Of a stretch of DNA of 64,000 nucleotides, positions 456 through 60,440 are shown in pieces. Position 1 is the first letter of the stretch; each line of letters starts with the position of its first letter. The notes beneath the pieces were generated by a model that saw nothing but the letters and a program-made list of their open reading frames with translations, searched no databases and was not told where the DNA came from. Both the position numbers and the translations under genes were made by a program. This DNA comes from Hermatobates lingyangjiaoensis (lineage: Eukaryota; Arthropoda; Insecta; Hemiptera; Hermatobatidae): assembly GCA_026182355.1 (NCBI GenBank), contig JAPFBL010000310.1:229501-293500 (forward strand), read 5' to 3'.

Positions 456-2004
456 TTTAAATTTAGCTAAGTTTCATTATCTTCATTGAACTTTAAATAA
501 ACCTTATTAAACATAATGTCATTATGCCAAATAATATTATAACTATTCTTAATACATTTTTCAGGGACATTATGTAATATGGGAATTTATTTGTCGTAGA
601 ATCACTGCTAATAGTGATTACACAGCACTGTTTAAAGTGCCCATCGCAAGCAGTGAACCACGCATAGAACTAGTATTCAAGTTCAGCAAACTCAAATTTC
701 AGTTGGAAAAATCATCCTACAAGTTGATAGAACTGTTGCTCAAGTGAATTCTACAAACAAATAAAACGCTATAAAAGAATATAAAAAAATGATACTTCTA
801 TTCTTAGATACATGAGTTTTTTTATTTTTATTGAATTATATTGCAAGAAAAGAGACTTGGAAGGAAATGGCCTTGACAGAGAAGGAAGTCGGCGACTGCA
901 CCAGTCTGAATTTTCACGCTTTCTACCGAGATATTCAGAGTCTCCCGTAACAGTGCCCCTGACGTCACGTCGTCAACAAAACCCGACTATCGCTTTCTAC
1001 ATAATTCGTACATATTCTAAATTTAGTAATCCTCTTTTAAAAAAAAAATTAAATTGATAAATCATATATACTAGCTTACATGAAAATTGTATAACATATA
1101 AATTTTCAGTGGTCGCTTTATTGGTCAACTTCTTTGTGCAACAAAAAATAAATTTTACTCTTTAAATATTTCGATGAAGTTATTGCAACTTACATTGGGA
1201 TTCTAAAAAGGAAACTACAATAAGTAAATGCTAATCTGATTATTAAATAATAACATTTGAACAAACAGTACCTTATAATAATAAAGCAGCTGCTTTTCTA
1301 CCAAAAGAGGCTTAATTCTATCGTACCATTCTAGGTTCCTGTGTATTTCTCGCAACAACAGCATATTCTATTCAAATTTTAATAACCTGAAGTAGACTAT
1401 TATAATTAAAATGTCGTTGAATAAGTTTTTCAGGCAAGGCTGACAATTAAGGCTTAAATCTAAGTTTAAATTATTTTTAAATATATGTTTCATTGAATAA
1501 TGCTTCATACCTCCTGAAGTAAGTTACATTATACAGTTTTAAAAGAGCCTTACTTTTGCCATTACGTTAAATATAATATTCTCCTAATTTAATTTTCTTC
1601 TAGAGTGACTTCATGTGCTTATAGGAAAAACAAAAATTACAATCAAACCAGTATAAATACTTTGTGAATCTGCCAAACTCTGAAATATACTAAAATCGGT
1701 TAATGAATCAGTCGAAATATAACAAAACAGAAGAAAATAAAATTGGGTTTTCGAGAAAAATGTTAAAAAACTTTTTCCTGGGATACAAAGTATATCACTG
1801 AACAAAATATTTACAATGTTCAAAATAAATTTTGCGTTAAAAAAAAAATCATTTTCGATTACTACCTATGAATATGTATAAATAATTATCAAAAATTAAT
1901 AACCAACTAAATAACAGGATTGAGGGAAAATAAATAAAAACCGTTTGTATAAATAATATATATATATATATTGATTATATATATATATATATTATCAATA
2001 TATA
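456..2004. other. Gene-poor stretch, no supported feature
   Basis: Mostly AT-rich. A GC-richer island at about 860-1010 contains a perfect CRE-like palindrome TGACGTCA (960-967) and an 81-codon open frame with no recognisable domain. I do not call it a gene. It could be a host regulatory island or exon, but nothing here proves it. Confidence 0.4.
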
Positions 2005-2385
2005 TATATATTGATAAAAGTATCGACCGGGGAATAGAAACAACACTAAAGTTTATCAGGACTCGGTCAGTTCTTCAAGTTCAAATTAAACTCTCATTGC
2101 CAACGTTTCGGTCTTTATACACCTTTTACATCTTGCTTGGTTATTTCAGTTCAGTGTCACGTGTTCATTCATACTACAGTTGTTAATGTAGTATTTTTCT
2201 ACTATTTTTCTTTGTAAAATAATGTGTAATGTAATACTTAGATTTTCTGTTTCAAAATTTATACTTCTGCCTATGAGAAAGGTTTTAAATAAAACGTCAG
2301 CAACGAGAGTTTAATTTTTGAACCTAGAAAATTGACCGAATCCTATTAGATAACACACCTATTCTATCAAGTGGTCGATATATAT
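2005..2385. repeat. F4 PLE-derived unit, inverted arms
   Basis: Left arm (about 2005-2130) is the reverse complement of the F4 sequence also seen at 26885-27085; the right arm (about 2265-2385) is in plus orientation. F4 hallmarks are an F4 hairpin (AAGGTTTT..AAAAC) followed by GAAACGTTGGC in better copies, and CCTATGA in front of the hairpin. Short (TA)n lies immediately left. Probably a partial PLE terminal repeat inserted as an inverted pair. Confidence 0.5.
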
Positions 2386-3192
2386 ACGGTGCGTAAATAC
2401 GGATTACGGACCTTGCTCGCCAATCAGGGCCCATGAAATATAATAATCACTAAAATGATTTTCCATTAAATTAACATTTCAATATAATCCCTCCAACTTA
2501 TATTTTAAATAATTGTAATATTAAGTTTATGTTGTTAATATTAGGAAAGGGTCACGGAACTCAGAATAACGCTATCTTTATAGCAGGAAAAGCTACTCCA
2601 AGATAACTGTACATCGGCATAAATACCATTTGTAAAAACCTAAAGACCGTAGTTTTCGCATTAATCATTTCAAAGGTGAATTTTTAAACGTTTCATCGTC
2701 CTGATTTGATCAAGTGAGTTGAAGACATCAACTAGATTACAGTCCTTGTGGTATTTATATTTACCTTTCACAACCTCATCTCATTTTGTACAATGTATTT
2801 TTAAAACTTTTTTTCACAATGTTATTGTTTTATAAATATTTATTTTTACTATTATATACCAAATTTGTTAATTCAATTTATTTTATTTTGTTTTTATTTT
2901 TCTCAATTATATTTTTTTTAATTTAATTCTCTCACAAGGCACTTGTGAGGTTCACTTATAGAACCAGAAGTAATTGTTTCTTTTGACCCTTCAGCTAAAA
3001 ATTGACATTGTGTGTTTTTTTATCAACTAATTCAAGCTCAGTATTTACTTTTCTTTTTTATTTCCGATCTGGATAGTTTTTCCATTGTTCAAGCTTTCCT
3101 GCTCACCTTACACGGAGAACAAGAAATAACAACAGTTATAATGAATTTGACATCTTCATTTAATTTTCATTTTACTTATGCATTGTTGAGTT
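2386..3192. other. Intergenic, nothing recognised
   Basis: AT-rich, T-rich runs near 2810-2920. No gene or repeat family recognised. Confidence 0.45.
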
Positions 3193-3465
3193 AGTAGACC
3201 AGGTTAGCACAGTGGTAACGTGCCCGACTTTGGACTGATAGATCCGGGTGGTAGGCACCACTCTGACCCATGATTTATTCACGCGGGAGGTGAATAAATC
3301 CGATCTGTTTTCCCTCGGAAAGGACGCCAGCTCTCGGTCACGAGCCTACACAATACCAGGTACTCACTAAACACCAACTCTAAATACACTTCAGTTAAGC
3401 AAAATTAGGACTAGAAATATACAGTGTTCATTGCCTCATTTGTGTCGTATCACAAAACGTGATAC
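3193..3465 (+). mobile_element. tRNA-derived SINE
   Basis: The 5' part is tRNA-like: an A-box-like segment GGTTAGCACAGTGG (3212-3225) and, about 20 bases on, a degenerate B-box region GATCCGGGTG (3241-3250). The body downstream (CTCGGAAAGGACG, then AACTCTAAAT and GTTAAGCAAAATTAGGAC) is shared in reverse with the copies at 10255-10475 and 58215-58435. It would be transcribed by RNA polymerase III and moved by another element's machinery. The B box is damaged here; the 10255 copy keeps it. Confidence 0.75.
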
Positions 3466-4265
3466 GAATTCAGGTTTTCTGTATTCCCTTGTGGACTGCC
3501 ACTGCAACCTACCTAACCTATGTATATTGATGAGTAAAGGAGTTAAATTTAAAGCTAATCTATTATTGTTAGAATTAAACTGCGAAAAAAATATCAAAAT
3601 AATTCATTGCAATGATGTATTGCAAATAAAACATTATACGATTTTAAACTAAGGGAAAATAGTAACAAAAAATGGTTGGTAAAATTATGATAGACTGATG
3701 ATGGTCAAATAGTCGATGCGCCAATTTGAAGTTTTCATTCTGTTTTTAAAATTTCTAGAGTTTAAATGATCTCACTGAGATAAAGTATTTCTAACAAAAG
3801 CTGCAGGCAATATTACCTGTACTCGAATGTGTTTTCATGTTAATTTTGAGCTAATTTTTTTAAAATACTTTCATCAAATTATTTTCCTATAATTTGTTTT
3901 ATATTTTTTTTTGCTTTATACAGTTTGGGTGAAGAAAAGGTTTGTAAAAAGCACTATATAAGCCAGTTTAACACGTAATTGATGATACTATATCGTAAAT
4001 GTGTTTACGATGTGCTTAAAGTAGTAATGGTTATAGAATAACGTAAATATGACGTCATTACTCAGCTAACACATGTAATATGTAACTAAGCATTCTTACA
4101 TGATCAGTATTATTAAAATGATATTATAAGAAGTGAAAGTAGAAATAAACATGGAATTGCCGAGTACAAGCAAGGTCTTAAAGTTGTTTACAAGTGGATC
4201 CACCTGGATTTGCAGGTTGAAGAAGAGGCTAAGTGTGGTGGATGTTAGACCAACATAAATCGTAG
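3466..4265. other. Intergenic, nothing recognised
   Basis: AT-rich. No gene or known repeat seen. Confidence 0.45.
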
Positions 4266-4270
4266 TTAGC

Positions 4271-4430
4271 ACCCACCAAAGTTAGCATCCTGATAAACAA
4301 TCATAAAGCTTCCGTCAACAACCCCTCCCATCTTCTCATCGCCATTCATGCCAATAGCCACGGACTCTACTTCAATGTGTGCTATATGCTACAAATTGTG
4401 CTAGAAATCCCTCTAATTGCAAAGATGTGA
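4271..4430 (+). pseudogene. PLE GIY-YIG endonuclease fragment
   Basis: Translating this stretch gives NNHKASVNNPSHLLIAIHAN followed by SHGLYFNVCYMLQI, which matches in order the end of the GIY-YIG domain of the open frame at 29293-30084 (NGHRASV..NYPVAIHANSHGLSFNDCFRVQIL). The catalytic YVG part lies upstream and is broken. It is followed by an F5-type 3' end (4440-4566), as expected at the 3' end of a PLE. Non-functional relic. Confidence 0.7.
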
Positions 4431-4439
4431 CTCTTATCT

Positions 4440-4566
4440 CCTTCCTTCTTTGTGACAGTCTGCGCATGCAGCAACAATCCGACACTCTCGACATCAGTGC
4501 GCTTGGCTTCTCTCTCTTATCTCTCCTGATGATGATTTAACAAAAATTAGGGACTGTCAGATTTGA
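4440..4566 (+). repeat. PLE 3' end (F5 type)
   Basis: Follows the GIY-YIG relic. Contains TCTCTCCTGATGATGATTTA, where CTGATGA resembles a hammerhead core, but the expected GAAA is replaced by AAAA and stem II is poor. Ends at a (TA)n tract. Confidence 0.45.
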
Positions 4567-4714
4567 AATATATATATATATAGGTGTGTTCTCTAATCGG
4601 GGTTAGGTCAATTTTCCAGGATAAAAAATTAAACTCTCGTTGCCAACGTTTCGGTTTTATTTAAAACCTTTTTCATAGGCATTATTTAAAGGAACAACAA
4701 TGTTCCTTTATTTG

Positions 4715-4784: not shown

Positions 4785-4915
4785 AAGTTGGAAGCAGTCC
4801 TTCATTTAAACATATATTGTTAAATAACGCCCCATATTTGGCTTGTATCAAACTGACTAACTCACTGTTATATTCATTATTGCCCTGATGATGAATGTGG
4901 TACATACAAAACACG
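4785..4915 (-). pseudogene. PLE N-terminal fragment
   Basis: Minus-strand peptide includes AKYGALFNNICLNEGLLPTF, the conserved N-terminal motif of PLE open reading frames, then runs into the microsatellite at 4722-4778. Forms a loose inverted pair with 4930-5040, which encodes AKYGAL on the plus strand. Confidence 0.65.
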
Positions 4916-4929
4916 TCGACTTGTAGTAT

Positions 4930-5040
4930 TGGTGATAAGCTTTATAGTTTTAATGAAGAGACGAGGAAAAAATTCCGGAAACTGAAGAAATTGTGAAAAG
5001 AAACAGATAAAAGCCAAATATGGGGCGTTATAACAATATA
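4930..5040 (+). pseudogene. PLE N-terminal fragment, truncated
   Basis: Plus-strand partner of 4785-4915. It encodes the same AKYGAL stretch and is truncated before the EGLLP motif, ending in a short TA-rich tract. Confidence 0.5.
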
Positions 5041-5393
5041 TACGTATATTCAACAGTCCATGGAGTGTTAAATAACTTTGTAACTTTGTTTCAGTTATGA
5101 CCTTTTTTTACTTCATTTATTTCATTGTTTTGGTTATTATTTCTGTATTTGGAGTTAACTGTGCATACTTACTTTTTTGTTATGGTAACTTTCTAAGAAT
5201 GTTTGAAATATTTTCTCGTATTATTGAATATCAAAATATGTTTGTTTTACTAGTACATTTTATATAAATATAATTATTAAATCATTCACAATTAATTAAT
5301 ATAATAATTAATTAAATCATTAGGTAACCACTAATGGCACGGGTAAAACAACACCAAGGTAAATAGACAAAAATTTTATTTTATGGTTTAATC
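5041..5393. other. Intergenic, nothing recognised
   Basis: AT-rich. No gene seen. Confidence 0.4.
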
Positions 5394-5517: not shown

Positions 5518-5588
5518 ATAAAAAGATTTCACATAAACACGTGAAATAACAATCAATGATCAAACCACAATAAGAAATGGGAAAACAA

Positions 5589-5631
5589 GACTAAGATCTT
5601 TCAACCGTCACAAGCCGTCTTCGTCAGAGTC
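5589..5631 (-). ncRNA. F1 hammerhead-like motif, stem II damaged
   Basis: Minus strand: GACT stem I, CTGACGA core, A, GACGG..CGGTT (one mismatch breaks stem II), GAAA, AGATCT stem III, T, AGTC stem I. Probably weak or inactive compared with the partner at 5651-5693. Confidence 0.5.
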
Positions 5632-5650
5632 CAACCTCAGTTGGGTTTTT

Positions 5651-5693
5651 GACTCTGACGAAGACCGCTTGTTACGGTTGAAAGATCTTAGTC
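5651..5693 (+). ncRNA. F1 hammerhead-like ribozyme motif
   Basis: Stem I GACT (5651-5654) pairs with AGTC (5690-5693). Core CTGACGA 5655-5661, one extra A (5662), stem II GACCG/CGGTT (5663-5667/5675-5679, one G-U), GAAA 5680-5683, palindromic stem III AGATCT 5683-5688, and T5689 at the cleavage position. This matches the type-I hammerhead layout known from PLEs and retrozymes. The extra nucleotide before stem II departs from the canonical core. Activity is not proven. Confidence 0.65.
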
Positions 5694-5740
5694 TTGTTTT
5701 CCCATTTATTATTGTGGTTTGATCATTGATATATATAAGG

Positions 5741-7561: not shown

Positions 7562-7812
7562 TACATATAAACCAATTAAAAAAGATAGCAGACAGATAGA
7601 CACAGGAATAAGTCACTTCTATATTTCGACAATCGTCGTCATCAGGAGACAAAGAGTCCCGCAGAAAGGCTGAGTCGCCGCTCTGCTTTCCTGCGGGTCT
7701 CTTCGCCTCCTCATGACGACGATGGTCGAAATATAGAAGTGAGTTATTCCTGTGTCTATCTGTGTGCTATCTTTTTTAATTGGTTTTTATTTAAAAGTCC
7801 ATTGGACCGTTT
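7562..7812. mobile_element. F2 foldback unit
   Basis: Inverted arms 7575-7672 and 7680-7790 share GATAGACACAGGAATAA, the GTCGAAATATAGAAGTGA segment and the GAGTCCCGCAGAAAGGC stretch. The right side continues with the F2 end (AAAAGTCCATTGGACCG hairpin). The left arm has an intact hammerhead-like core; the right arm core is CTCATGA. Confidence 0.7.
7613..7650 (-). ncRNA. F2 hammerhead-like motif
   Basis: Minus strand: CTGATGA (7639-7645), extra C, GAC-GATT-GTC stem II, GAAA, ATAT stem III, A at the cleavage position, then GAAGTGAC. Stem I pairing with GTCTC is weak. The opposite arm (7710-7742, plus) has a G-to-C change in the core and is likely dead. Confidence 0.45.
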
Positions 7813-7891: not shown

Positions 7892-8145
7892 ACTTTTTCG
7901 ATGAAAATACGATCCGAAATGGACAAATACAGTTCAATGTACATAAAGAAACATAGAGAAATTAAAAACACAAACTTACAGTCTGTAATGTTTGGTTGAA
8001 CCGTCATCATGAGAAAAGAAAGTGGAGTAAAAAAATTATCGGAACTCCCTTCTGTCCCGATTGCTTATAAGCCGGATATTACGGACCTAGAGACTGTAAG
8101 TGTATTTATCTATTTATTGTTTACCTATAGGGTTATATACATATT
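7890..8145. repeat. F5-related fragment and unassigned sequence
   Basis: 7895-7995 resembles the F5 tail (minus orientation; TTCAATGTACATAAAGAAAC). 8009-8145 holds a short plus open frame (RKESGVKKLSELP...) followed by F1; no domain recognised. Confidence 0.4.
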
Positions 8146-8285
8146 AATCAATGATCAATGGGTTTTTGACTCTGACGAAGACCGCTTGTTACGGTTGAAA
8201 GATCTTAGTCTTGTTTTCCCATTTCTTATTGTGGTTTGATCATTGATTGTTATTTAACGTGTTTATGTGAAATCTTTTTATACAT
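8146..8285 (+). repeat. F1 right arm
   Basis: Single plus-oriented F1 monomer with hammerhead-like motif and the full tail GTTTATGTGAAATCTTTTTA. No inverted partner next to it. It shows that the tail missing from right arms of foldback units is part of the full monomer. Confidence 0.7.
8168..8210 (+). ncRNA. F1 hammerhead-like ribozyme motif
   Basis: GACT 8168-8171, CTGACGA 8172-8178, extra A, GACCG/CGGTT stem II, GAAA, AGATCT, T, AGTC 8207-8210. Identical in every core position to 5651-5693. Confidence 0.65.
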
Positions 8286-10475: not shown

Positions 10476-12838
10476 TGTTATACTTCGTCATATTGGTTTG
10501 GTTCAATGTCCATGGATTTGATTTCACGTTTAACCACTTTCTAGGAGCACAAAATGTGGCTCAATCGTTGCTTGTTATTTATTTTAGCAATTGAAAACCT
10601 ATAATAATGGGTTTATTTTATATCGTGATAATAACATTATATTCTATTCAACCTTACTGAAATGGGGATCTTTAACTAGTGCTTGACATCAAGAAGGATC
10701 GGTGAACGGATTTTTAACTCTCTGACATATAGTGTTACACATGGTTTCATAGGAACTATTTAACAACTGTAGTTTAGCAGCAATAACACTTCCACTATAC
10801 CTCACATCCCTGTCTAGTATCTACAGTAACATTTAATAATAAACACCATCAATGAAAACACAACCCATTGTTAATAGACAAACAAAAAAAGGTATACGAA
10901 TTACTTATTGTCGAAGAACAATACAGTGAGAGCTTTGAAAACAATCAATCTAAACACAAAAGAACTTTTTCAATTTACTTTAAAACTTTGGCGATATGAT
11001 TAATTGCGCAGTCAAGCATATGCATTGAAACATTTCTCCATAAAGTTTAATGCATAAAATGAATCACCAGATTGAAAATGTTAAAATGCATCATTAGATA
11101 AGTAGTAAAGAATGCGGAAGTCTGTCAAAATATGGAAAACCACTCTGCAATGGAATATATTAGCAAAGTTCACTTAATTTTGAATACATTATGGGTCGCT
11201 ATTGCTAAATTAACTCAGTGGTAAAGTTTTCAGATAACACCATGCCGTTATGGTCTGCTCTCTGGTACGCGTAGCACTTTGAATGAAAGTGTACGTTTGT
11301 AAAAGGCGCGTGATATTTCGTACAGTAAGTAGGTCAGAGCTCAGTGCCTGTATGCAGGTCAGGACCGTGAACAAGGTCACTAACATCAAAACCTCTCAAA
11401 ATAAGTGAACTTTATCTCTGAAATACTTCTCTGTAAGCGAAAACAAATAAAATTTAATAATCATGTTTCTCAGACTAACACAAATGCTAATTTTCACGCT
11501 AAAATATAATAGAATATCTCAGGTTGTTTAAAATTCTTTTGGAATATAATAAAATGGTTAAATATTATATAACCGTCAATTACATCATCATTACATCAAA
11601 TATTCTAGAAGTAATAAGGAATTAATTGCAGAACTTTAGTATCATCAATCGCAATAAGTAATATTATCACAAAAATTAAGAATCACCATGTAAAAATATA
11701 ACATTTGGAACACTATTCGGGATATGGCTGCACTAATTTTACCCACGCATTACGAAGGAAGCTATTTTTTTCTCTGAAATAGTTGCAATTGGCTTTATTT
11801 TCGGCATGGTGTATAATCATAAGACATGTAAACAATGATGTGAGATGAGGACTGATGTATCCTGCAGGACTGAGGTGAAAAAATGAGTGTCTCATCTAGT
11901 ATTAAGGCTTCGGGCAAAACTACTCGATGAATCAACTGTGGAGGCACTTGGGCCAAACTCAAACGAGTAAACTAACCAATTAGTTTTATTATTCAATCTA
12001 GCAATGTGTTTTAATATCAAATTATAACGGAATAGTTGAAGTTGTCTGTTTCCAGGTGATGGATTCACCTATTCTATGAAATTTGTCATACAACGAAAGT
12101 AAGTTAGTCAACAACATGCATATATCTCATCGTACAAGATACTCACTTTAACTGTAAATTACCTATTCGTTTTGTTGGGCTCTACTACCAAGAGAGTAAG
12201 AACGGCTACTGAGCTAACCATTAGTAAAAACAGCCAAATTCTTAATAATATCAAAGTAAGCCTAATCATCAAGTTTAAAGTATTAAATAAAATTCATTCG
12301 AACGTGCATTCTTGAATTATATGAGACCAACATCCATACATAATTAATTTTTTTTTTCAAGAAAAAAACCTGAGAAGTTTTAAGGAGAAAGTAAGACGTA
12401 ATTCAAAGTGAATGCAACCTAGTACGTGACCCTCATCAACTAATAAACATGGAAGATGCATTTTATTTGGAAAGTTTGGCCTGTCAGTCATGCTTTAAAC
12501 GGCTAACTTTCTTGGGACTAACGCACGTTCACAGTGATAATTTAACATTTTCTCCAACGAATCATTCTTTGTGAATAACAAATTACTTAATAGTTTTTGT
12601 TGTTTAAATAAATATGTCTAATTTCAATTGATTATAATAACTATTTTATTTTATTTTTTTTTCCTATTCTTTTCAAAATCTTGGACATCTATAATACTAG
12701 TTATGTAGAAAAACTGATGAAATAACTCAAGGTTCAACAACGTATTTTATTCGAATACTCTAAATCGAAAGCGCAGTTTTAAGTTTGATCGACTTAACTT
12801 AAAAACTCCTAATACCCAAATCATATAAACAAAAATAT
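10476..12838. other. Gene-poor stretch
   Basis: About 2.4 kb of AT-rich DNA with only short open frames. No domain, repeat family or RNA recognised. Confidence 0.45.
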
Positions 12839-12915
12839 ACTATATATAAAAAGATTTCACATAAACACGTGAAATAACAATCAATGATCTAACCACAAAT
12901 GAAATGGGAAAACAA

Positions 12916-12958
12916 GACTAAGATCTTTCAACCGTAACAAGCGGTCTTCGTCAGAGTC
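12916..12958 (-). ncRNA. F1 hammerhead-like ribozyme motif
   Basis: Minus strand: GACT/AGTC stem I, CTGACGA (12948-12954), extra A, GACCG/CGGTT, GAAA, AGATCT, T. All elements intact. Confidence 0.65.
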
Positions 12959-12970
12959 AGTTGGGTTTTT

Positions 12971-13013
12971 GACTCTGACGAAGACCGCTTGTTACGGTTG
13001 AAAGATCTTAGTC
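12971..13013 (+). ncRNA. F1 hammerhead-like ribozyme motif
   Basis: Plus-strand mirror of 12916-12958, identical core. The pair would also form a long hairpin in any read-through transcript, competing with ribozyme folding. Confidence 0.65.
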
Positions 13014-13058
13014 TTGTTTTCCCATTTCATTTGTGGTTTGATCATTACTATATATAAA

Positions 13059-14253: not shown

Positions 14254-14526
14254 TTTTACAAATTTACGACCTTTACAAATGCAAATAGCTAGATATCCAT
14301 AACTTCCATAGATTTTGAAGTATAATTCGAGAGAATTCCCCTCTGAGATGATCGGCTCGAATACAGATATAATTTGATCAGGGTTCTTACTTTTTCTAAA
14401 CACAGAGTAGCATTCTTTGTGTGATGACGAATACAGCTCCCTCGATTGTAGTTGAGTAATTCTAGGGTAAAAAGGTTCATGAACTACGAAGGTAGTACAA
14501 TCCGCTATTATGTGGTATTTTCTCAT
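14254..14526 (-). CDS. Small open frame after an F3 unit, MRKYHIIADCT start
   Basis: A 91-codon frame starting MRKYHIIADCTTFVV. The start peptide recurs downstream of other F3 hammerhead units (MSKYHIITDCT at 20610, MSKYHTITDCT near 43293, and in reverse near 35545 and 50180), so it probably belongs to the F3 element's coding start rather than a host gene. The rest has no domain I recognise. It may be a PLE N-terminal segment or chance; the inverted copy at about 14738 has a stop at codon four. Confidence 0.35.
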
Positions 14527-14800
14527 TGTAGGCTAAAAAAGTTAATGAAATAGCCTCCACATATAGAAATTTAGAAATATATATAGAAATACGTATAAAA
14601 ATACATATACACATACAAATTTATAGAAACAGCCTAAAAAGGGACGCATTCTGCTGGAAATGTGTTCGAAAAGCATTGTTTATATTATTAAATTTCTATA
14701 TGTGGAGGCAAATTCATTAATTTTTTTACCCTATAATGAGAAAATAACACATAATAACAGATTGCACTACCTTCGTAGTTAAGTAAAAAAATCTATGAGA
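14510..14800. repeat. F3 foldback unit, degraded
   Basis: Left arm (minus) 14510-14575 and right arm (plus) about 14670-14790 share TTTCTATATGTGGAGGC, the ATGAGAAAATA segment and the CTACCTTCGTAGTT end. The hammerhead region (about 14645-14690, GTGTTCGAAAAGC) has lost the CUGANGA core. Confidence 0.55.
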
Positions 14801-19204: not shown

Positions 19205-19420
19205 ACATATATAAATATTATTATAATATGCAGCAGCTTCTGCATTGACCAATTTCTTGTTGACACTCTCTAGTTTTCTTATCACTTTACGGTGATACGT
19301 AAACTAGAGAGTGTCAACAAGAACTTGGTCAATGCAGAAGCTGCTGCTTATTTTAATAACGTATGCTTAAGGGAAGACCTGCTGCCATTGTACACAAATA
19401 TATAATATATATATAATTTA
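19205..19420. repeat. Palindromic PLE N-terminal fragment
   Basis: Arms 19231-19275 and 19301-19346 are inverted copies (about 44 of 45 positions) around a 25 nt loop. The plus arm encodes NAEAAAYFNNVCLREDLLPL followed by YTNIY, a PLE N-terminal motif, then (TA)n; the minus arm stops at AEAAAYYNN and also meets TA-rich DNA. Confidence 0.7.
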
Positions 19421-22484: not shown

Positions 22485-22754
22485 ACGTACGAAACCGCAA
22501 AAACCTTAATAAAATTATATCTGTTTACCTCCAGCAAAATACCTCCTCAAGTCTAGCGATGAATTTCTGGAAATTTTAAAAGCCACAAAAGCTAAAGGAA
22601 CTATGGCTTCGCTAGACGTTGAATCACTGTTTACCAATGTGCCAGTTCTAGAAACAATAGATATTATTTGTGAGTAGCCTACAACCACGCTACGCTACCC
22701 CCCCACCATTTAAACAGAAATCTTGAAAGAATTACTTATAGCATGTACAACTAA
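22485..22754 (+). pseudogene. Duplicated RT fragment of the PLE
   Basis: About 270 bp nearly identical to 22954-23227. Encodes the stretch from ETAKTLNKII through LEILKATKAKGTMASLDVES to the region before RT motif B. In this copy the LEILKATKAKG reading frame is intact, where the second copy lost one T; conversely this copy has an indel at ICE-stop where the second reads ICDVAY. The two copies carry complementary lesions. Confidence 0.75.
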
Positions 22755-24320
22755 TATAGCATGTACCAAAAACCCAACAAATAAGTTAAAAGTGGAAATA
22801 AATAAATTAATTAGAATGGCTAATAAGGAGGTAGAAGATAAAGTGTTAAGACCGGTTATTGGAGAGTATAACCCGGGATACCTTTACGGAAATGTTAAGT
22901 GTCACAAACCTGGCTATCCCCTGAGACCCATAATTTCACAAGTTACAACGCCTACGTACGAAACCGCAAAAACCCTTAATAAAATTATATCTGTTTACCT
23001 TCCAGCAAAATACCTCCTCAAGTCTAGCGATGAATTTCTGGAAATTTAAAAGCCACAAAAGCTAAAGGAACTATGGCTTCGCTAGACGTTGAATCACTGT
23101 TTACCAATGTGCCAGTTCTAGAAACAATAGATATTATTTGTGATGTAGCCTACAACCACGCTACGCTACCCCCTCCACCATTTAAACAGAAAATCTTGAA
23201 AGAATTACTTATAGCATGTACAACTAAAAATCCATTCTGCCACATAGACGGGAGCATGTACTACCAGACGGATGGCGTGGCCATGGGTTCCCCACTTGGG
23301 GTCACATTTGCAAATTATTATATGTGCAACCTAGAGAATTCGATTATCGCTAAAATCCAACCTGGAAGCCTCATATATATTGTAGGTACGTTGATGACTG
23401 CTTTGTGATGATGGATAAGCCGGAATATATAGATAGATTAAATTGCTTTTGAAGCTGAATCGGTTTTGAAGTTTACATATGAGATGGAAACCAACAGTAG
23501 CTTGACTTTCTTGATGTTAAAATAAAGAGTAATGGAGAAAACCAGACTTTTGTCACTTCAGTGTTTGTAAAGTCTACGAATAGTGGAATACTTTTAAACG
23601 CTAAAAGTGAATGCCCTGACAGATATAAGGACGGCATGATTAAAACCCTCATTCGAAGAGCGTATAAGACGTCATCTAGTTGGGAATTATTCAAACAAGA
23701 AGCAGATAGGCTCAAAGAAGCCTTATTAACAAGGATATAGTAATCGACAATTCGATTCCATCTTGAAAGGTTGCCTGAACAAACTTCATGGTAGTGATAT
23801 TCAACAGAATCCCGAAAACAAAGGCGCAAACATTTAGTATATTATAAAAACCAGTTTTCGGAAGCTTATAAAACGGATGAACGTATACTAAAAGGAATTA
23901 TTAAGAATAATACATCATGCCTCAAGCCAGATGACAGATTAGAATTACGAATTTACTATGCCAACTCTGCCCTTCAAGAATGGTAATTACGAACAACCCA
24001 CAAAAAAAGCAACCCTTCAGAGAACTAATGTTGTATATGAGTTTAACTGCAAATTAGGGAACTGCGAGTCCCTACGCTCGAAATACGTTGGTTCCACCAC
24101 AACCACGCTTTCACGAAGGCTCACCATGCATCTGGCATCCGGAGGACCCAAAGAGCACGTTAGGTTAACACATGGATGCAATTAACCAGGGAAATGTTAA
24201 CGGACAATACTGTAATATTACAACAAGAACATGACCACACCAGATTGCAAATTTTGGAAGCTATCTTGATCCTTGAAAAGCAACCTAGTATTAACAGCCA
24301 AGGAGGAGGATTTTCAAAAT
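22755..24320 (+). pseudogene. PLE reverse transcriptase and GIY-YIG endonuclease
   Basis: Recognisable blocks in order: YLYGNVKCHKPGYPLRPIIS (RT motifs 1-2, about 22880-22935), MASLDVESLFTNVP (motif A aspartate, 23073), YYQTDGVAMGSPLGVTFANY (motif B, 23260), RYVDDCFVMMDKPEYIDR (catalytic YVDD, about 23385-23435, in another frame), FTYEMETNSSLTFLD-like segment, then from about 24030 VVYEFNCKLGNC, SKYVGSTTTTLSRRLTMHL (GIY-YIG) and TREML...ILEKQPSINSQ. Frameshifts at about 23047, 23370, 23455, 24185 and others plus stops make it non-functional. The element would encode the copy machinery for nearby non-autonomous units. Confidence 0.9.
22954..23227 (+). repeat. Second copy of the internal RT duplication
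   Basis: Direct repeat of 22485-22754, lying inside the RT body. The first copy abuts the inverted arm, so the 5' side was probably built by partial copying of the same template. Confidence 0.8.
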
Positions 24321-28970: not shown

Positions 28971-29060
28971 ACAGCAGCTTCTGCACTGACGACCTTGTAG
29001 ATGTCTTGTTCCAGCCTCCTGACTGTTTTCCGGTGCTCCGGGGTAAATCCCAAATCAGTT
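28971..29060 (-). pseudogene. PLE N-terminal fragment
   Basis: Minus strand encodes TPEHRKTVRRLEQDIYKVVS then AEAAVYFNQIYLKEYLIYI as it enters TA-rich DNA at about 28930. Same block as 19205-19420. Confidence 0.65.
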
Positions 29061-29074
29061 GCTCAAGGGACATT

Positions 29075-29285
29075 TAATAATAGAAAACACAGATCATTAA
29101 CAACAACACTATCTTGGAATGATTGAATAACTAAAATAGAAAACACAGATCATTGACAACAACACTATCTTGTAATGATTAAATAACTAAAATAAAAAGA
29201 TTTTAGTTATTCAATCATTACAAGATAGTGTTGTTGTCAATGATCTGTGTTTTCTATTATTAAATGTCCCTCGGGCATTGTAATC
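29075..29285. repeat. Inverted and direct repeats at PLE 5' junction
   Basis: The segment AATAATAGAAAACACAGATC with its following 50 bases occurs twice in tandem (from 29091 and from 29133) and once inverted (29205-29275). It sits exactly where the PLE body is truncated, so it marks the complex 5' junction of the insertion. Confidence 0.65.
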
Positions 29286-29292
29286 CATTGTA

Positions 29293-30084
29293 ATGGAGGT
29301 ACTGTTGGGAGTTGGGAGTTACAATAGTTGCCATCCATCCCATGTTAAAAAGTCTATACCTCGATCCTTGTCCCTCCGTATTCACAATATCTGCAATAAT
29401 TTCCAAGACCGCAGACATCACCTTAACCTCTTAAAGGACAAATTTTCTGAACGAGGCTATCCTCGCTCCTTCATTGATAGTCGTGTTTTACCGGCTGACA
29501 TCTCCCACCAACCCAGACCCAAGAGGGATAGAAGTAACACTTCCTTCTTCCTGACAACCTACTTCCCTGGCGCTTATAAGCTTCGTGCTGTTATTAAGGA
29601 GTCTTTTCCGATTCTGTCTACTTCTACTTCTACTTCTTCCATCTTTAATCACCCCCCTTCTATTTCCTACCGTAAACCTGCCAATCTAAAAAGCATTTTC
29701 TCTCATATTTCCCCTCAGCCTTCCAATCCTGTTCCTGGAATGAAACAATGTGGACGCCGTGGCTGTCAAACTTGCCTGATTGTAAATCCTAATCCTTCCT
29801 TCGATTCCCCTCTCCACCATAGTTCCTACCCGGTTCAGGTCAATTCCTCCTGTACCTCGAGCAACTGTGTTTACCGACTGGATTGCACTCAGTGTGACTC
29901 CTTTTACGTTGGCTTAACTTCTAATAAGTTGAGCCTTCGTATGAATGGTCATAGGGCTTCAGTCGGTCAACGCAGTAACTATCCTGTAGCCATCCATGCG
30001 AACTCGCATGGACTCAGTTTCAATGACTGTTTCAGGGTTCAGATCCTGAAACAGATCCCGAATCCAACAATAAAGTTACCCTAA
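29293..30084 (+). CDS. PLE C-terminal half with GIY-YIG endonuclease, 5'-truncated
   Basis: An uninterrupted 263-codon frame. SCHPSHVKKSIPRSLSLRI (residues 12-30) is the region right after the RT core in PLEs of the Neptune/Poseidon type; then ISYRKPANLKSIFSHI (about 123-138), a cysteine cluster CGRRGCQTC (about 152-160), and the GIY-YIG endonuclease from CVYRLDCTQCDSFYVGLTSN (about 191) through NGHRASV and YPVAIHANSHGLSFNDCF. The endonuclease would nick DNA for retrotransposition. The RT is missing: the frame opens at a junction of repeats, and the first ATG is not a natural start. Openness suggests a recent insertion. Followed by a 3' region and an F2 hammerhead-like motif at 30432. Confidence 0.8.
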   Translation: MEVLLGVGSYNSCHPSHVKKSIPRSLSLRIHNICNNFQDRRHHLNLLKDKFSERGYPRSFIDSRVLPADISHQPRPKRDRSNTSFFLTTYFPGAYKLRAVIKESFPILSTSTSTSSIFNHPPSISYRKPANLKSIFSHISPQPSNPVPGMKQCGRRGCQTCLIVNPNPSFDSPLHHSSYPVQVNSSCTSSNCVYRLDCTQCDSFYVGLTSNKLSLRMNGHRASVGQRSNYPVAIHANSHGLSFNDCFRVQILKQIPNPTIKLP

Positions 30085-30430
30085 GAGCTTCAGAGGAGGC
30101 ATACATATGCTTACTTGATGCTCGCTCTTCCCCCGGACTCAACCTCAACCGATAATTTATTTATGATTTATTTATTTATTTATTATTTTTTATTTATTTA
30201 TTTATTATTTTTTATTTTACTTTTTATTTATTGTTTTTATTAATTTTAATTTGATTTATCTACTTTTTTATAATTTTTTATAGTTATAATTTTTACTCGT
30301 TCCTTTTACGTCTTAATTTGGCTCTTCATTTCCTTCCCTCCCTTCCCCCGCTTGGTGGTAAGTGGTGGGGTACTGGCTGCGGTTTCCGAGTTCAGTACCA
30401 CCTGTCTTCCTGCGGGACTCTTCGCTCTTC
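30085..30430 (+). other. PLE 3' region
   Basis: Completes the endonuclease C-terminus in another frame (ACLLDARSSPGLNLNR-like reading), then a TTTAT-rich tract and C/T-rich sequence leading to the hammerhead-like motif. Confidence 0.6.
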
Positions 30431-30431
30431 G

Positions 30432-30469
30432 CACCTCCTGATGACGACGATTGTCGAAATATCGATGTG
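30432..30469 (+). ncRNA. F2 hammerhead-like ribozyme motif
   Basis: Stem I CACCTC (30432-30437) pairs with GATGTG (30464-30469), 5 of 6. Core CTGATGA 30438-30444, extra C, stem II GAC/GTC with GATT loop (30446-30455), GAAA 30456-30459, ATAT stem III, C30463 at the cleavage position. The best F2 copy, located 3' of a PLE frame. Confidence 0.65.
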
Positions 30470-30547
30470 AGTTATGTCTGTGTCTTTCTGTGTGTTTCCT
30501 TCGTTTTTTATTTTATTGTAAAAAAGTCCGCTGGACCGTTTCTTTTA

Positions 30548-30589
<42 letters not shown>
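30470..30589 (+). repeat. F2 tail and (TA)n
   Basis: TGTGTCTTTCTGTGTGTTTC, then AAAAAGTCCGCTGGACCG hairpin (GTCC/GGAC) and (TA)n at 30551-30589. This is the usual F2 3' end. Confidence 0.7.
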
Positions 30590-32231: not shown

Positions 32232-32232
<1 letters not shown>

Positions 32233-32295
32233 ATTTCACATACACACGTGAAATAACAATCAATGATCAAACTACAATATGAAATGGGAAAACAA

Positions 32296-32338
32296 GACTA
32301 AGATCTTTCAACCGAAACAAGCGGTCTTCGTCAGAGTC
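32296..32338 (-). ncRNA. F1 hammerhead-like ribozyme motif
   Basis: Minus strand with GACT/AGTC, CTGACGA, extra A, GACCG/CGGTT, GAAA, AGATCT, T. Intact; loop of stem II has one change. Confidence 0.65.
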
Positions 32339-32384
32339 ACCATCAGTTGGGGTTTGATGTTGACGGAGTTGTTGTTTTGATGTT

Positions 32385-32427
32385 GACTCTGATGAAGACC
32401 GTTTGTTATGGTTGAAAGATCTTAGTC
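32385..32427 (+). ncRNA. F1 hammerhead-like ribozyme motif, CUGAUGA core
   Basis: GACT 32385-32388, CTGATGA 32389-32395 (the classical core), extra A, GACCG/TGGTT with G-U pairs, GAAA, AGATCT, T, AGTC 32424-32427. The core position that varies in hammerheads (N7) is U here and C in most F1 copies. Confidence 0.65.
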
Positions 32428-32499
32428 TTGTTTTCCCATTTGATATTGTGGTTTGAACATTGATATGATATATAATATATATATATATAATAAGTAACC

Positions 32500-40100: not shown

Positions 40101-40329
40101 TATATATATATAAATGATCAAACACAATTCAAAACAATGGAAAACACAGACTAAGATCTTTCACCGTAAAAGCGGTCTCTTCAGTCAAACCCAACTGACT
40201 CTGACGAACGACGTCGAAATATCGTGTGAAGTCTTAGTCTGTGTCTTTCCCATGTGTGTTTCTTCGTGGTTTGATCATTGATTGTTATTTTAAAAACAGT
40301 CCGCTGACGTTTCTGTTTAATCTGTTCAT
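40101..40329. repeat. Mosaic of F1 and F2 units
   Basis: The left part is a degraded F1 minus arm. The right part alternates short F1 and F2 pieces in the order both families would give: GACTCTGACGA (F1), GTCGAAATATCG (F2), TCTTAGTCT (F1), GTGTCTTTC (F2), CCCAT (F1), GTGTGTTTC (F2), GGTTTGATCATTGATTG (F1), AGTCCGCTG (F2). Either a consensus error of an assembler that merged two copies, or real repeated template switching. Confidence 0.65.
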
Positions 40330-40548
40330 ATATATATATGAGCCTGTCACATAAACACGTTAACAACAATCAATTCAAACCCAATAAGAAATGGGAAAAC
40401 AAGACTAAGATTTTTCAACCGTAACAAGCGGTCTTCGTCAGTTGGGTTTTTGACTCTGACGAAGACCGCTTGTTACGGTTGAAAGATCTTAGTCTTGTTT
40501 TCCCATTTCTTATTGTGGTTTGATCATTGATATATATATGAGCCTGTC
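40330..40548. mobile_element. F1 foldback unit with 19 bp target-site duplication
   Basis: Direct repeat ATATATATATGAGCCTGTC at 40330-40348 and 40530-40548 flanks a 181 bp inverted pair. Left arm (minus) has a shortened tail and lacks its stem I 5' half; right arm (plus) carries an intact hammerhead-like motif. The GAGCCTGTC part is not TA, so the duplication is unambiguous. Confidence 0.85.
40452..40494 (+). ncRNA. F1 hammerhead-like ribozyme motif
   Basis: GACT 40452-40455, CTGACGA 40456-40462, extra A, intact stem II, GAAA, AGATCT, T, AGTC 40491-40494. Confidence 0.65.
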
Positions 40549-42599
40549 CAGAGGAAGGTCTACTATCGTTACTATTGAGGTAGTTAGTTGTGAATAACCT
40601 TCTGGTTACTGTAAATAATCACTGTTACGATACACAAGGATATACATCCTTTTTGTTATTATAAGAAGATGAACACTTGATGGTACTGCCTTTGAGCTTA
40701 TCCTCCTTGATTGCCAAATGCTGAAAGATAGATAAAAAAGAAAGAAGTCGATATAAATCATACCACAATAGTCCTTATTCCTATCTCGAGAAGAAAAGAA
40801 AAAACAAAGCTTATTCTTCTAGAAAGATGATAAATCTCCATAGTCTTATTCATCGAGAAGAAAGAAATTTTTTGAGACTGAAAATCTCATTATTATAAAA
40901 TATTAAACTAAAACTCCCAGACTCACGCGAATAACTTTGAATGATCTTTTAAATAAAACTAATCTAGCCTATCGATGAAGACTAAACTGGAAAGGCAAGC
41001 ACCGGGCATAGTAGTGGAAAGCTCCAGTTTTATAGTACAATGAGATTGATCTACACCAGTGACTTGATGTTTGATATAACGAATAAAATGGATATAACCA
41101 CAATTAAACGAAAGAATTTATAATCTAGGAATTTCATGATAATTTACCAGAGTATAATATATTATGTGTGCACGATAGACTTATGAAAATAAAACCAAAC
41201 TTCAATTGATATGGACATACATTGATATATTTGTTGCATTGCTAAGTACAGCTCAGAATATTCCAGTTCTGGTAAAATATATTAATCGTTCCATTTAGAA
41301 AATGAAAGTCCTTGTTTGACTCCAAGCTCGTATAACCTGACTCTCCTTGACATTTTGCCATAAAGACTACTTCCGTTTCAATAAAAATTGTTTCAGCTAT
41401 TTTACAGATACAACATAATAATAATACGAATTTTAGATCGAAAAAAAATACTCATTGTAGATTGTAGTGTATGCTATATTACATATGGAATTTGAGAAAA
41501 AGTTATACATTTAATTCAACTTAATTTTTATTTTTTTCAAATGAACTACTGTATTTCATGTACATTTACCAAAACGATTGACCTACGAAATAAATTATTA
41601 TATTGTAAAATACAATATAAAATATTTCAGAGAAATATCACAAATTATCATCCGTTTAGAAAATAAATCCTGAGTTGTAATAAATCAGATGTTTATTAAA
41701 ATGTAATTAATTTGACATAAGTTTCTAAGCGTAACGTACGTATGGATTGGTACAGAGACATGGCTGATAACCCTACTAATCTGCTAGTCGTTAAGCATGT
41801 CGACCGTCACATTTCTGCTTCAGGTCACGAATTTCCCTCCTCTCCTGAAGACAAGAAGCAGACATGAACGAGAATCGTCACCTTTGCGTTTCACAAAAAA
41901 ACACACACTGAATAATTAATCTTATATTCCATTATCCATACTAAATAAGAAGGATCATCTTACGAGGTACGACGGTTTTACCTATTTCTAATATAAATAA
42001 GAAGTATGCCTAGAATAAAATCAAATTTGAGCCCAGTATTTAAAGCTCCAAAACGAAAAATAAACTCCATATCTAAAGACAGTTATTGATTGTACTAATA
42101 ATAATATTTTCTACTACTCTATTTCTAATAGTATTTTACTTTTATACTTTTTCTAATAGTATTTTGGAATGTACTGTATCATCTCTGAATTTTTTTAAAA
42201 TAACCGTCTGTATTCAAATTTCATTTAAAATATGTTTAAATATTTTGCAATCACTTTTTGCTATAATCGTTTATAGATTTATATGTAGACACAATATAAA
42301 GAGTGCATATCTAATGATAGCAGTTTGGTTTATTAGATCAAAATATACTGGGACGGCCCTAATGTAATCTAACAATATGTAACATATGAAACCTCTTAAA
42401 CAATATTTCTTTTTTAATGACGTGCAAACATATATAGCTATATTGAATAGCGAGGAACTGAATGCAACGATTTGTCAAAATTTCAAAGCAACGATAAAGA
42501 AATTTGTTACTGATGCTTAACTAATTGCTATGTACTATTCAATAATTATAACGTGCAAACTGAAGTGTAAACTGTAGGATTGTGGGAGGGTGGTCGATG
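40549..42599. other. Gene-poor stretch
   Basis: AT-rich. A GC-richer part at 41740-41900 (CTCCTCTCCTGAAGACAAG) may be a faint F5-type 3' end. A 93-codon hydrophobic frame (42086-42367) is not called. Confidence 0.4.
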
Positions 42600-43093: not shown

Positions 43094-43343
43094 ACTTTTA
43101 AGTTGTTCTGAGGTAAAATGGATAAATAAACAAAAGTCTACACAAAAATGAAGTTTTATTCAACAACAACAACGCGTTTCGAACACTTTGTCTTCCTGAT
43201 GATGAACACAAGTGTTCGAAACGCGTTGTTGTTGTTTAATAAAACATTATTTGTGTGGAAACTTTTATTTGTTTATCCATTTTACCTCAGAATGAGTAAA
43301 TACCACACAATTACGGATTGCACAACTAATGACTTTTAAGTTG
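43094..43343. mobile_element. F3 foldback unit with 12 bp target-site duplication
   Basis: ACTTTTAAGTTG at 43094-43105 and 43332-43343 flanks a 226 bp unit. Left arm (minus): GGTAAAATGGATAAATAAAC, AACAACAACGCGTTTCGAAC. Right arm (plus): hammerhead-like motif, GTTTATCCATTTTACCTCAG, then the start peptide MSKYHTITDCTT and CAACTAATG at the end. The left arm lacks CUGANGA. Confidence 0.85.
43193..43232 (+). ncRNA. F3 hammerhead-like ribozyme motif
   Basis: CTGATGA 43196-43202, extra T, stem II GAACAC/GTGTTC (43204-43209/43212-43217), GAAA 43218-43221, ACGCGT, T43227. Stem I here is TTC opposite GTT, mismatched. Confidence 0.5.
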
Positions 43344-50151: not shown

Positions 50152-50382
50152 AAACTTTATTAAATCATTAGTTGTGCAATCCGCAATTGTGTGGTATTTA
50201 CTCATTCTGAGGTAAAATGGATAAACCAACAAAACTGTAATTTTGTAACTGATTAGATATAATTTGTATTATAGTGTCTTCCTGATGATGAACACAAAGT
50301 GTTCGAAACGTGTTGAATAAAACTTCATTTGTGTAGAGACTTTTGTTGGTTTATCCATTTTACATCAGAAACTTTATTAAAT
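50152..50382. mobile_element. F3 unit with 14 bp target-site duplication
   Basis: AAACTTTATTAAAT at 50152-50165 and 50369-50382 flanks a 203 bp unit. Left arm (minus) holds the F3 start-peptide region and GGATAAACCAACAAAA; the right arm (plus) has the hammerhead-like motif and TTTTGTTGGTTTATCC. Inserted in repeat B, so younger than it. Confidence 0.85.
50279..50317 (+). ncRNA. F3 hammerhead-like ribozyme motif
   Basis: Stem I TTC (50279-50281) pairs with GAA (50315-50317). CTGATGA 50282-50288, extra T, stem II GAACAC/GTGTTC (50290-50295/50299-50304), GAAA 50305-50308, ACGTGT, T50314 at the cleavage position. Best F3 copy. Confidence 0.6.
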
Positions 50383-60240: not shown

Positions 60241-60440
60241 GATATGTATCACCGTTCAAACCACAATAAAAAATGAGAAAAAAAGACTAAAATATTTCAA
60301 CCGTAACAAGCGGTCTTCGCCTCAACTGAGATTTAACTCTGATGAAGACCGCTTGTTACGGTTGAAATATCTTTTTTTCATTTCTTATTGTGGTTTGAAT
60401 GCTGATGGTTATTTCAGGCGTTTATTGTGAAATCCTGTTT

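Follow-up and report, generated by a model that had tools for sequence, protein, structure and literature searches.

Head-to-head, hammerhead-bearing ends in the genome of Hermatobates lingyangjiaoensis: probably one insertion of a short, protein-less Penelope-like element

Introduction

How does a palindromic pair of hammerhead-like motifs come to lie between two exact copies of a 19-bp repeat? Was the pair mobilised as it stands, or was it assembled where it landed? Both questions are raised by positions 40330 to 40548 of a 64,000-nucleotide stretch of contig JAPFBL010000310.1 of Hermatobates lingyangjiaoensis, hereafter the window. A sequence-only reading of this DNA had set the locus beside the tandem retrozymes of animals, and had taken an inverted ribozyme pair moving as one unit to be a class not yet described. 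Here the locus is compared with its relatives in the window and in the 909.9-Mb assembly, and with Penelope-like elements (PLEs), a third class of eukaryotic retrotransposon. The later steps of PLE insertion are presented in PMC11167929 as yet to be validated.

A palindromic pair inside one duplication

The 19-mer ATATATATATGAGCCTGTC occurs exactly twice in the window (40330-40348 and 40530-40548), with no third match at up to 3 mismatches on either strand, which bears out the exact repeat described earlier. The 181 bp between the two copies (40349-40529) form a head-to-head inverted repeat, whose arms (40377-40441 and 40456-40520) are 95% complementary and separated by a 14-nt spacer. By reading the boundaries between flank and element, 15 bp of the duplication are unambiguous and 19 bp are the maximum, because the outermost AT of the right copy and the TC of the left copy can equally be assigned to the element. 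The features of the locus are as follows.

40330..40348, plus strand: left copy of the target duplication, exact match (the last TC may be element)
40349..40529, no strand assigned: F1 element, 181 bp, head-to-head pair of hammerhead-bearing pLTR-like arms
40347..40441, minus strand: tailed arm, matching arm positions 18-116 in BLAST with the F1 arm query
40413..40441, minus strand: hammerhead-like core with a broken stem III palindrome (AATC)
40439..40531, plus strand: tailless arm, arm positions 1-93, inner end complete (CAGTTGGG; BLAST to the F1 arm query)
40456..40484, plus strand: hammerhead-like core, AGATCT stem III and then U
40530..40548, plus strand: right copy of the target duplication, exact match (the first AT may be element)

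The tail of the minus-strand arm is cut within the CACATAAACACG loop. Slippage as the origin of the 19-mer, already judged unlikely in the earlier reading, was rejected: the non-TA part of the repeat, GAGCCTGTC, is exact and sits at the element ends, and other copies show the same. We consider it probable that 40330-40548 represents one insertion of a short, protein-less PLE, the two hammerhead-bearing pLTR-like ends of which were joined head-to-head at insertion.

Hammerhead-like cores

The string CTGACGA-A-GACCG...CGGTT-GAAA is present on each strand (minus, 40413-40441; plus, 40456-40484). After the plus-strand core comes AGATCT-U, in which the six-base palindrome makes up stem III, and then AGTC, which pairs with the GACT preceding the core. 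Cleavage of this core would presumably fall after 40490, a position that, like the numbering, we take from the hammerhead consensus. Exact matches to CTGANGA-N-stem-GAAA, with a stem of at least 4 bp, number 21 in the window, against a mean of 0.08 and a maximum of 2 in 100 second-order Markov sequences. The letters of stem II vary among families while its pairing is kept (GACCG/CGGTT, GAC/GTC, GAACAC/GTGTTC, GACCG/CGGTC), and the window families have one extra nucleotide between CTGANGA and stem II. The minimal type I hammerheads of PLE pLTRs have almost no helix III (PMC7761336, PMC6155905); the 21 window cores may differ from them by this extra nucleotide between GA and stem II, which the search itself required. 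Rfam 15 returned no hammerhead match for either the whole window or 40440-40560, so that "hammerhead" is here a motif-based designation; the 36 sub-threshold Rfam matches, 30 of them to miRNA precursor families, reflect generic hairpins.

The transcript of the 181-nt pair is predicted to fold into a near-perfect hairpin (-116.2 kcal/mol, z -21). Given this fold, and the broken stem III of one core, the F1 pair itself is probably a poor ribozyme. Another hammerhead-like family in the window, the pLTR of an abundant PLE (7624-7731, 30438, 56409, 62414), has post-GAAA bases such as TATCGATGTGAG, in which no UH site was found at the spacing that helix III has in F1 and in a second family, F3.

Related copies in the window

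F1 arms are spread across the whole window. In a typical pair, one arm ends at GGTTTGATCATT(GAT) beside a TA run, and the second extends through a hairpin-forming tail (GTTATTTCACGTGTTTATGTGAAATCTTTTT). None of the following copies has a strand assigned.

5525..5730: F1 pair B; the common flank string ATATATATAA is inseparable from the TA run
8146..8274: F1 copy F, in which the tailed arm is full and the tailless arm a stub; TATACATATTAAT duplicated, starting at 8136 and at 8279
12853..13046: F1 pair C; TACTATATATAAA duplicated (12838-12850, 13046-13058), of which 1 base may be element
32232..32464: F1 pair D, with a longer centre
40110..40290: F1-like pair K, immediate left neighbour of the 40330-40548 pair; its tail is of PLE type (GTCCGCTGACG)
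43106..43331: F3 pair tailed on the right (39 nt); ACTTTTAAGTTG duplicated (43094-43105, 43332-43343)
50166..50368: F3 pair tailed on the left (39 nt); AAACTTTATTAAAT duplicated (50152-50165, 50369-50382; 12-14 bp)
60248..60434: F1 pair E; duplication not found

The two F3 duplications are devoid of TA runs, and the single tails of these pairs lie on opposite sides. Further palindromes of the window (4812-5041, 14482-14780, 19218-19359 and 29060-29277) showed no hammerhead-like core in the core scan.

Known elements of similar anatomy

Which known elements does F1 resemble? Animal non-LTR retrozymes are short, lack an ORF, carry a type I hammerhead and show long duplications where these are present; they form repeats of 150-450 bp, arranged in tandem in the axolotl (PMC7229834). 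F1 is likewise short, with hammerhead-like cores and, where they can be read, long duplications, but its arms form head-to-head pairs. A tandem retrozyme, defined by direct hammerhead repeats, was rejected on this inversion, and the comparison made in the earlier reading pointed to the wrong family, the anatomy being that of PLEs.

As in published PLEs, F1 combines hammerhead-like pLTR ends, inverted pLTRs, a tail of about 35 nt on one arm, duplications and (TA)n targets. In the endonuclease-containing Penelope elements of Adineta vaga, adjacent inverted pLTRs are mostly head-to-head, a 31-bp tail is optional on one inverted pLTR, duplications measure 8-10 bp, solo pLTRs occur, and foreign DNA can be carried between pLTRs (PMC3846280). 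None of these PLE features is new, and the claim of an undescribed class is not supported: head-to-head pLTRs with an optional one-arm tail and 8-10 bp duplications are published for Penelope elements (PMC3846280), as are hammerheads in PLE pLTRs (PMC7761336, PMC6155905). Two differences from Adineta vaga stand out. Full or truncated PLEs are found there at very low copy number, whereas the form described here is two-armed, protein-less and present in many copies; and self-priming on an antisense template is invoked there, whereas the joins and tails of the present copies point to priming from both target strands. In titles and abstract openings, neither a two-arm protein-less PLE family nor two-sided priming with one tail per pair was described, an absence that carries little weight.

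A miniature inverted-repeat DNA transposon with a chance hammerhead-like motif would also be short, palindromic, TA-targeted and present in many copies. Such elements have equal terminal inverted repeats and duplications of fixed length; in F1, one arm is longer than the other by its tail, the ends being unequal by about 35 nt, and duplications range from 8 to 19 bp. As the anatomy moreover matches that of a PLE with a putative reverse transcriptase, this explanation was rejected as very improbable.

Flanks and tails across the genome

A genome search with the 40330-40548 pair as query yielded 1206 candidates, of which the best 40 were scored. All 40 match the query in both orientations, as inverted pairs, an arrangement that is partly selected since these are the best-scoring places for this very query and do not form a random sample. 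Together, the other 39 of these places and five pairs of the window make up the set of 44 F1 pairs analysed below. No ORF was seen in any of the F1 copies found.

Across the 44 loci, the strings common to left and right flank are longer and rarer when the flanks are correctly paired than when they are mispaired (sum 546.6, against a permuted mean of 413.8 with sd 23.1; 0 of 5000 permutations reach it). Taken singly, seven of the 44 loci beat all 43 mispairings (1 expected), and at many of the other 37 the common flank string is a TA run; inspection of the flanks found no duplication at locus L043 or at window pair E. The expectation of the earlier reading that other copies would be flanked by duplications thus holds for the set as a whole, but for few loci individually. 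Duplications going beyond pure TA include ATATGTTTTGTA (L023), ATAATATCATTA (L027), ATAATGTAGTATA (L032) and ACTAATATAT (L045), in addition to that of window pair C and to the 19-mer itself. Where readable, target duplications measure 8-19 bp, within (TA)n flanks; duplication and AT-rich target are again as in PLEs.

The outer ends are equally regular. In 42 of the 44 pairs, one arm ends at arm positions 88-99 and the other runs into the tail (position 110 or beyond). Exactly one arm is tailed in 42 pairs and both in the remaining two, and the tailed arm is the shorter one in 40 of the 42 one-tailed pairs. A single tail of about 30-40 nt on one of two inverted pLTR-like arms is a feature of PLEs, and is found in 20 of 22 pairs of the PLE described next.

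Head-to-head pairs of an abundant coding element

The genome contains many near-identical copies of a PLE, one of which lies in the window.

29319..30556, plus strand: 5'-truncated PLE copy with GIY-YIG region, pLTR, tail and (TA)n, 97.7% to copy L075

Along one strand of this copy, a GIY-YIG-type C-terminus is followed by the pLTR, which has a hammerhead-like core of its own (30438), then by the tail AAAAAAGTCCGCTGGACCGTTTCTTTTAATTG and by (TA)n. A protein search with the endonuclease ORF gave one homologue (P0001), and the Pfam GIY-YIG matches are below cut-off both on the window copy (E 0.018) and on that homologue (E 0.00045). At the start of the window copy, 29287-29315 is a 29-nt inverted piece of the copy itself, possibly a fold-back scar at the truncated end. 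Copy L075 shows the fuller layout: a pLTR (1255-1490), an open frame of 1010 codons from stop to stop (1682-4711), and a second pLTR (4899-5135). Loci L074 to L077 have open frames of 794-1048 codons and are 98-99% identical to L074 over long alignments, which suggests that the family moved recently. In L076, units of about 123 bp repeated in tandem (1-1899) precede the PLE copy. A second PLE-like ORF remnant, with broken frames and 25-31% identical to the abundant PLE, occupies 22600-24200 on the plus strand of the window; its RVT_1 match (23034-23408, E 1.8e-4) is below the Pfam cut-off, and a KYVGST-type GIY-YIG motif was recognised by eye downstream of the reverse transcriptase. No link was established between this remnant (22.6-24.2 kb) and an F1 copy located at 24.8 kb.

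With the endonuclease ORF as query, 24904 candidate places came up in the genome, 144 of which were scored. Among these 144, all 14 cases of opposite-strand neighbours within 5 kb are minus-then-plus, that is, head-to-head. Twenty-two pairs were mapped on the natural copy L075: these 14, with both arms among the 144 matches, and eight more, two with long ORFs (L074, L077), two from a long-ORF search (L053, L057) and four (L078, L080, L081, L082) from a systematic sample. That sample took every fourth of the 144 matches between the 13th and the 45th, and its nine loci, L062 included, comprise five head-to-head pairs, one case of inverted fragments and three single copies. Not counted among the 22 are L055, L056, L058 and L059, whose partner is cut off by the end of the sequence examined, and L085, with inverted fragments only; L048-L052, L054, L075 and L076 have no second arm, or a short inverted piece only, within the stretch examined.

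The 22 pairs show 22 truncation combinations, the difference in inner truncation ranging from 0 to 3433 nt. At the joins, arms overlap by 1-5 nt in nine pairs, abut in one, and are separated by 2-234 nt of filler in 12. Twenty of these pairs have one tailed and one tailless arm, two lack a tail altogether, and no pair is tailed on both arms (P 5e-5 against independent tails, which would leave about half of the pairs mixed). The tailed arm is shorter in seven of the 20 one-tailed pairs, longer in 12 and equal in one, so that the F1 bias towards a more complete tailless arm is not common to the PLE; at L074, a short tailed inverted arm faces a near-complete pLTR-ORF-pLTR arm. Arms of one locus differ by a median of 0.0008, compared with 0.0042 between loci, and in 13 of 18 pairs no arm from the other 17 is closer than the partner. 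Any target duplication around these pairs is masked by (TA)n.

Could each pair simply result from two separate single-arm insertions into the same (TA)n run? The element does target (TA)n, and single-arm copies exist (L079, L083, L084), but the uniform head-to-head order of the 14 close pairs led us to reject this explanation. The near-identity of the arms of one PLE locus, the readable duplications that surround both arms, and the lack of (TA)n between F1 arms likewise make it scarcely credible.

Joins and the question of a palindromic master

If a palindromic master gave an RNA spanning both arms, and this RNA served as the single template for reverse transcription and insertion of the whole pair, all copies should carry the join of their master. 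Classified by coordinates, the central joins of the 44 F1 pairs fall into 21 kinds (28 distinct centre strings if point differences beside the join are counted). Three joins recur, in 15, 7 and 4 copies, each on 3-4 nt of microhomology between the arms, the commonest including L015 despite a point difference there; the other 18 are unique, some with filler, whereas a palindromic RNA would keep one join. Recurrence of joins, together with the match of all 40 scored places as inverted pairs and the greater completeness of the tailless arm in 40 of 42 cases, is what copying of a ready-made pair would produce. Yet copies with the same join are no more alike in either arm among the 26 copies concerned (tailed arms, 0.0768 within against 0.0747 between joins; tailless arms, 0.0572 against 0.0542; a result as extreme came up in 1856 and 1940 of 3000 permutations), nor does tail subtype depend on the join (p 0.94). 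The power of these tests is limited, the majority of differences between copies being private; as far as 26 copies can tell, recurrent joins are not inherited by descent.

The two arms of a locus nevertheless share variants. Site 72 agrees between them in 41 of 44 loci (31.4 expected), the mean distance between arms is 0.0598 within loci and 0.0700 between (0 of 20000 permutations), and the distance matrices of tailed and tailless arms are correlated (Mantel r 0.32, 151 of 5000 permutations as high). Source variants common to both arms fit two cDNAs made from like RNA, and taken alone would also fit the copying of whole pairs, under which the Mantel correlation is expected too. That route would further require the 5' end of the RNA to fall at the same outer position, start site 1 of the scheme below, every time, and the coding PLE yields head-to-head pairs with a different truncation combination in each of the 22. 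Copying from an inverted master is thus, in our estimate, unlikely.

Of the earlier view that the whole pair was inserted as a unit, one part stands: both arms lie inside one duplication, here as at other loci, which indicates a single insertion event. The other part, an inverted unit handed on from copy to copy, is not sustained by the diversity of joins, by the lack of a link between recurrent joins and arms or tail subtype, or by the variable PLE pairs. New here is that head-to-head pairs apparently arise in the course of insertion rather than by the copying of an inverted master.

How could pairs be made at insertion?

A purified PLE protein offers a precedent. In vitro, PAc (Poseidon, from Anolis carolinensis) was found to cut both strands of its target and to extend both, with a preference for AT-rich DNA. 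It begins reverse transcription at either of two internal sites lying close together, and the distance between them corresponds to the tail; its pLTR contains a hammerhead, and mutants without ribozyme activity insert as before (PMC11167929). The scheme proposed below agrees with this in vitro work in two-strand cutting and extension, in two start sites about one tail apart, and in AT-rich targets; the origin of inverted pairs is not addressed in the main text section considered here. In PMC11167929, top and bottom strands do not differ in start site, so that the one-tail rule is not predicted there. This weighs against the scheme below, and the rule is an addition from this genome to the PAc picture.

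In this scheme, a PLE-type protein (GIY-YIG endonuclease and reverse transcriptase) would make staggered cuts in both strands of a (TA)-rich target, and the two target 3' ends would each serve as primer for a cDNA of element RNA, begun at start site 1 for the tailless arm and at start site 2, about 35 nt further 3', for the tailed one. Both cDNAs would be extended towards the RNA 5' end and halt at independent places. Joining of their 3' ends, in many cases over 1-5 nt of microhomology or across filler, would then leave an inverted pair inside the target duplication. Two-sided priming at two start sites followed by cDNA joining would account for the head-to-head order, the set outer ends, the single tail, the unequal truncation, the varied joins and the duplication around both arms. 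From the anatomy, duplications, two outer ends, single tails, variable joins and near-identical PLE arms read in the sequence, we infer that both strands act as primers, that the template is one RNA or several from a single locus, and that a PLE protein mobilises F1. Tentatively, and at somewhat less than an even chance, we propose that an asymmetric pair of reverse transcriptases primed by both target strands uses start sites 1 and 2 once each on that RNA (or those RNAs of one locus), the single tail per pair being the footprint of the complex, and that any RNA with both sites, even a protein-less hammerhead pLTR of about 120 nt, would yield a head-to-head palindrome.

Several observations go against two-sided priming. 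Besides the shared arm variation, the F1 bias in completeness, the partly selected arrangement of the F1 copies, the lack of an ORF in those found and the masking of PLE duplications by (TA)n, all mentioned above, arms of L074, L077, L053, L069 and L065 have closer relatives elsewhere than their partners. Others call to mind the mechanism put forward for Penelope in PMC3846280, in which one cDNA (or antisense RNA) self-primes at its 3' end and copies itself. Near-identical arms are what such fold-back would give, and short fold-back pieces do exist at joins, in the window copy (29287-29315) and in L082, where 86 nt between the two PLE arms (1463-1548) are an inverted copy of the adjoining arm end; a cDNA end may thus copy itself before joining. 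L061, which alone of the first 14 PLE pairs has no tail, lies between two inverted copies of a single flank, fits fold-back better than two-sided priming, and is possibly a true snap-back product. As a general explanation, fold-back is nonetheless improbable: a copied arm cannot outreach its template, yet among one-tailed pairs it is the shorter arm that has the tail in seven of 20 cases for the PLE and in 40 of 42 for F1. Among 14 PLE pairs compared, moreover, flanks are clearly inverted only in L061 and L068, and those of L068 look diverged by eye, so that they seem to predate the insertion.

Significance

The compact F1 pair is a possible source of long hairpin RNA. For PLEs at large, near-identical head-to-head copies serve as insertion footprints, recording set outer ends, one tail per pair and varied joins. 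Such footprints make two-sided priming directly testable, and two-sided priming would explain why inverted pLTRs are so common.
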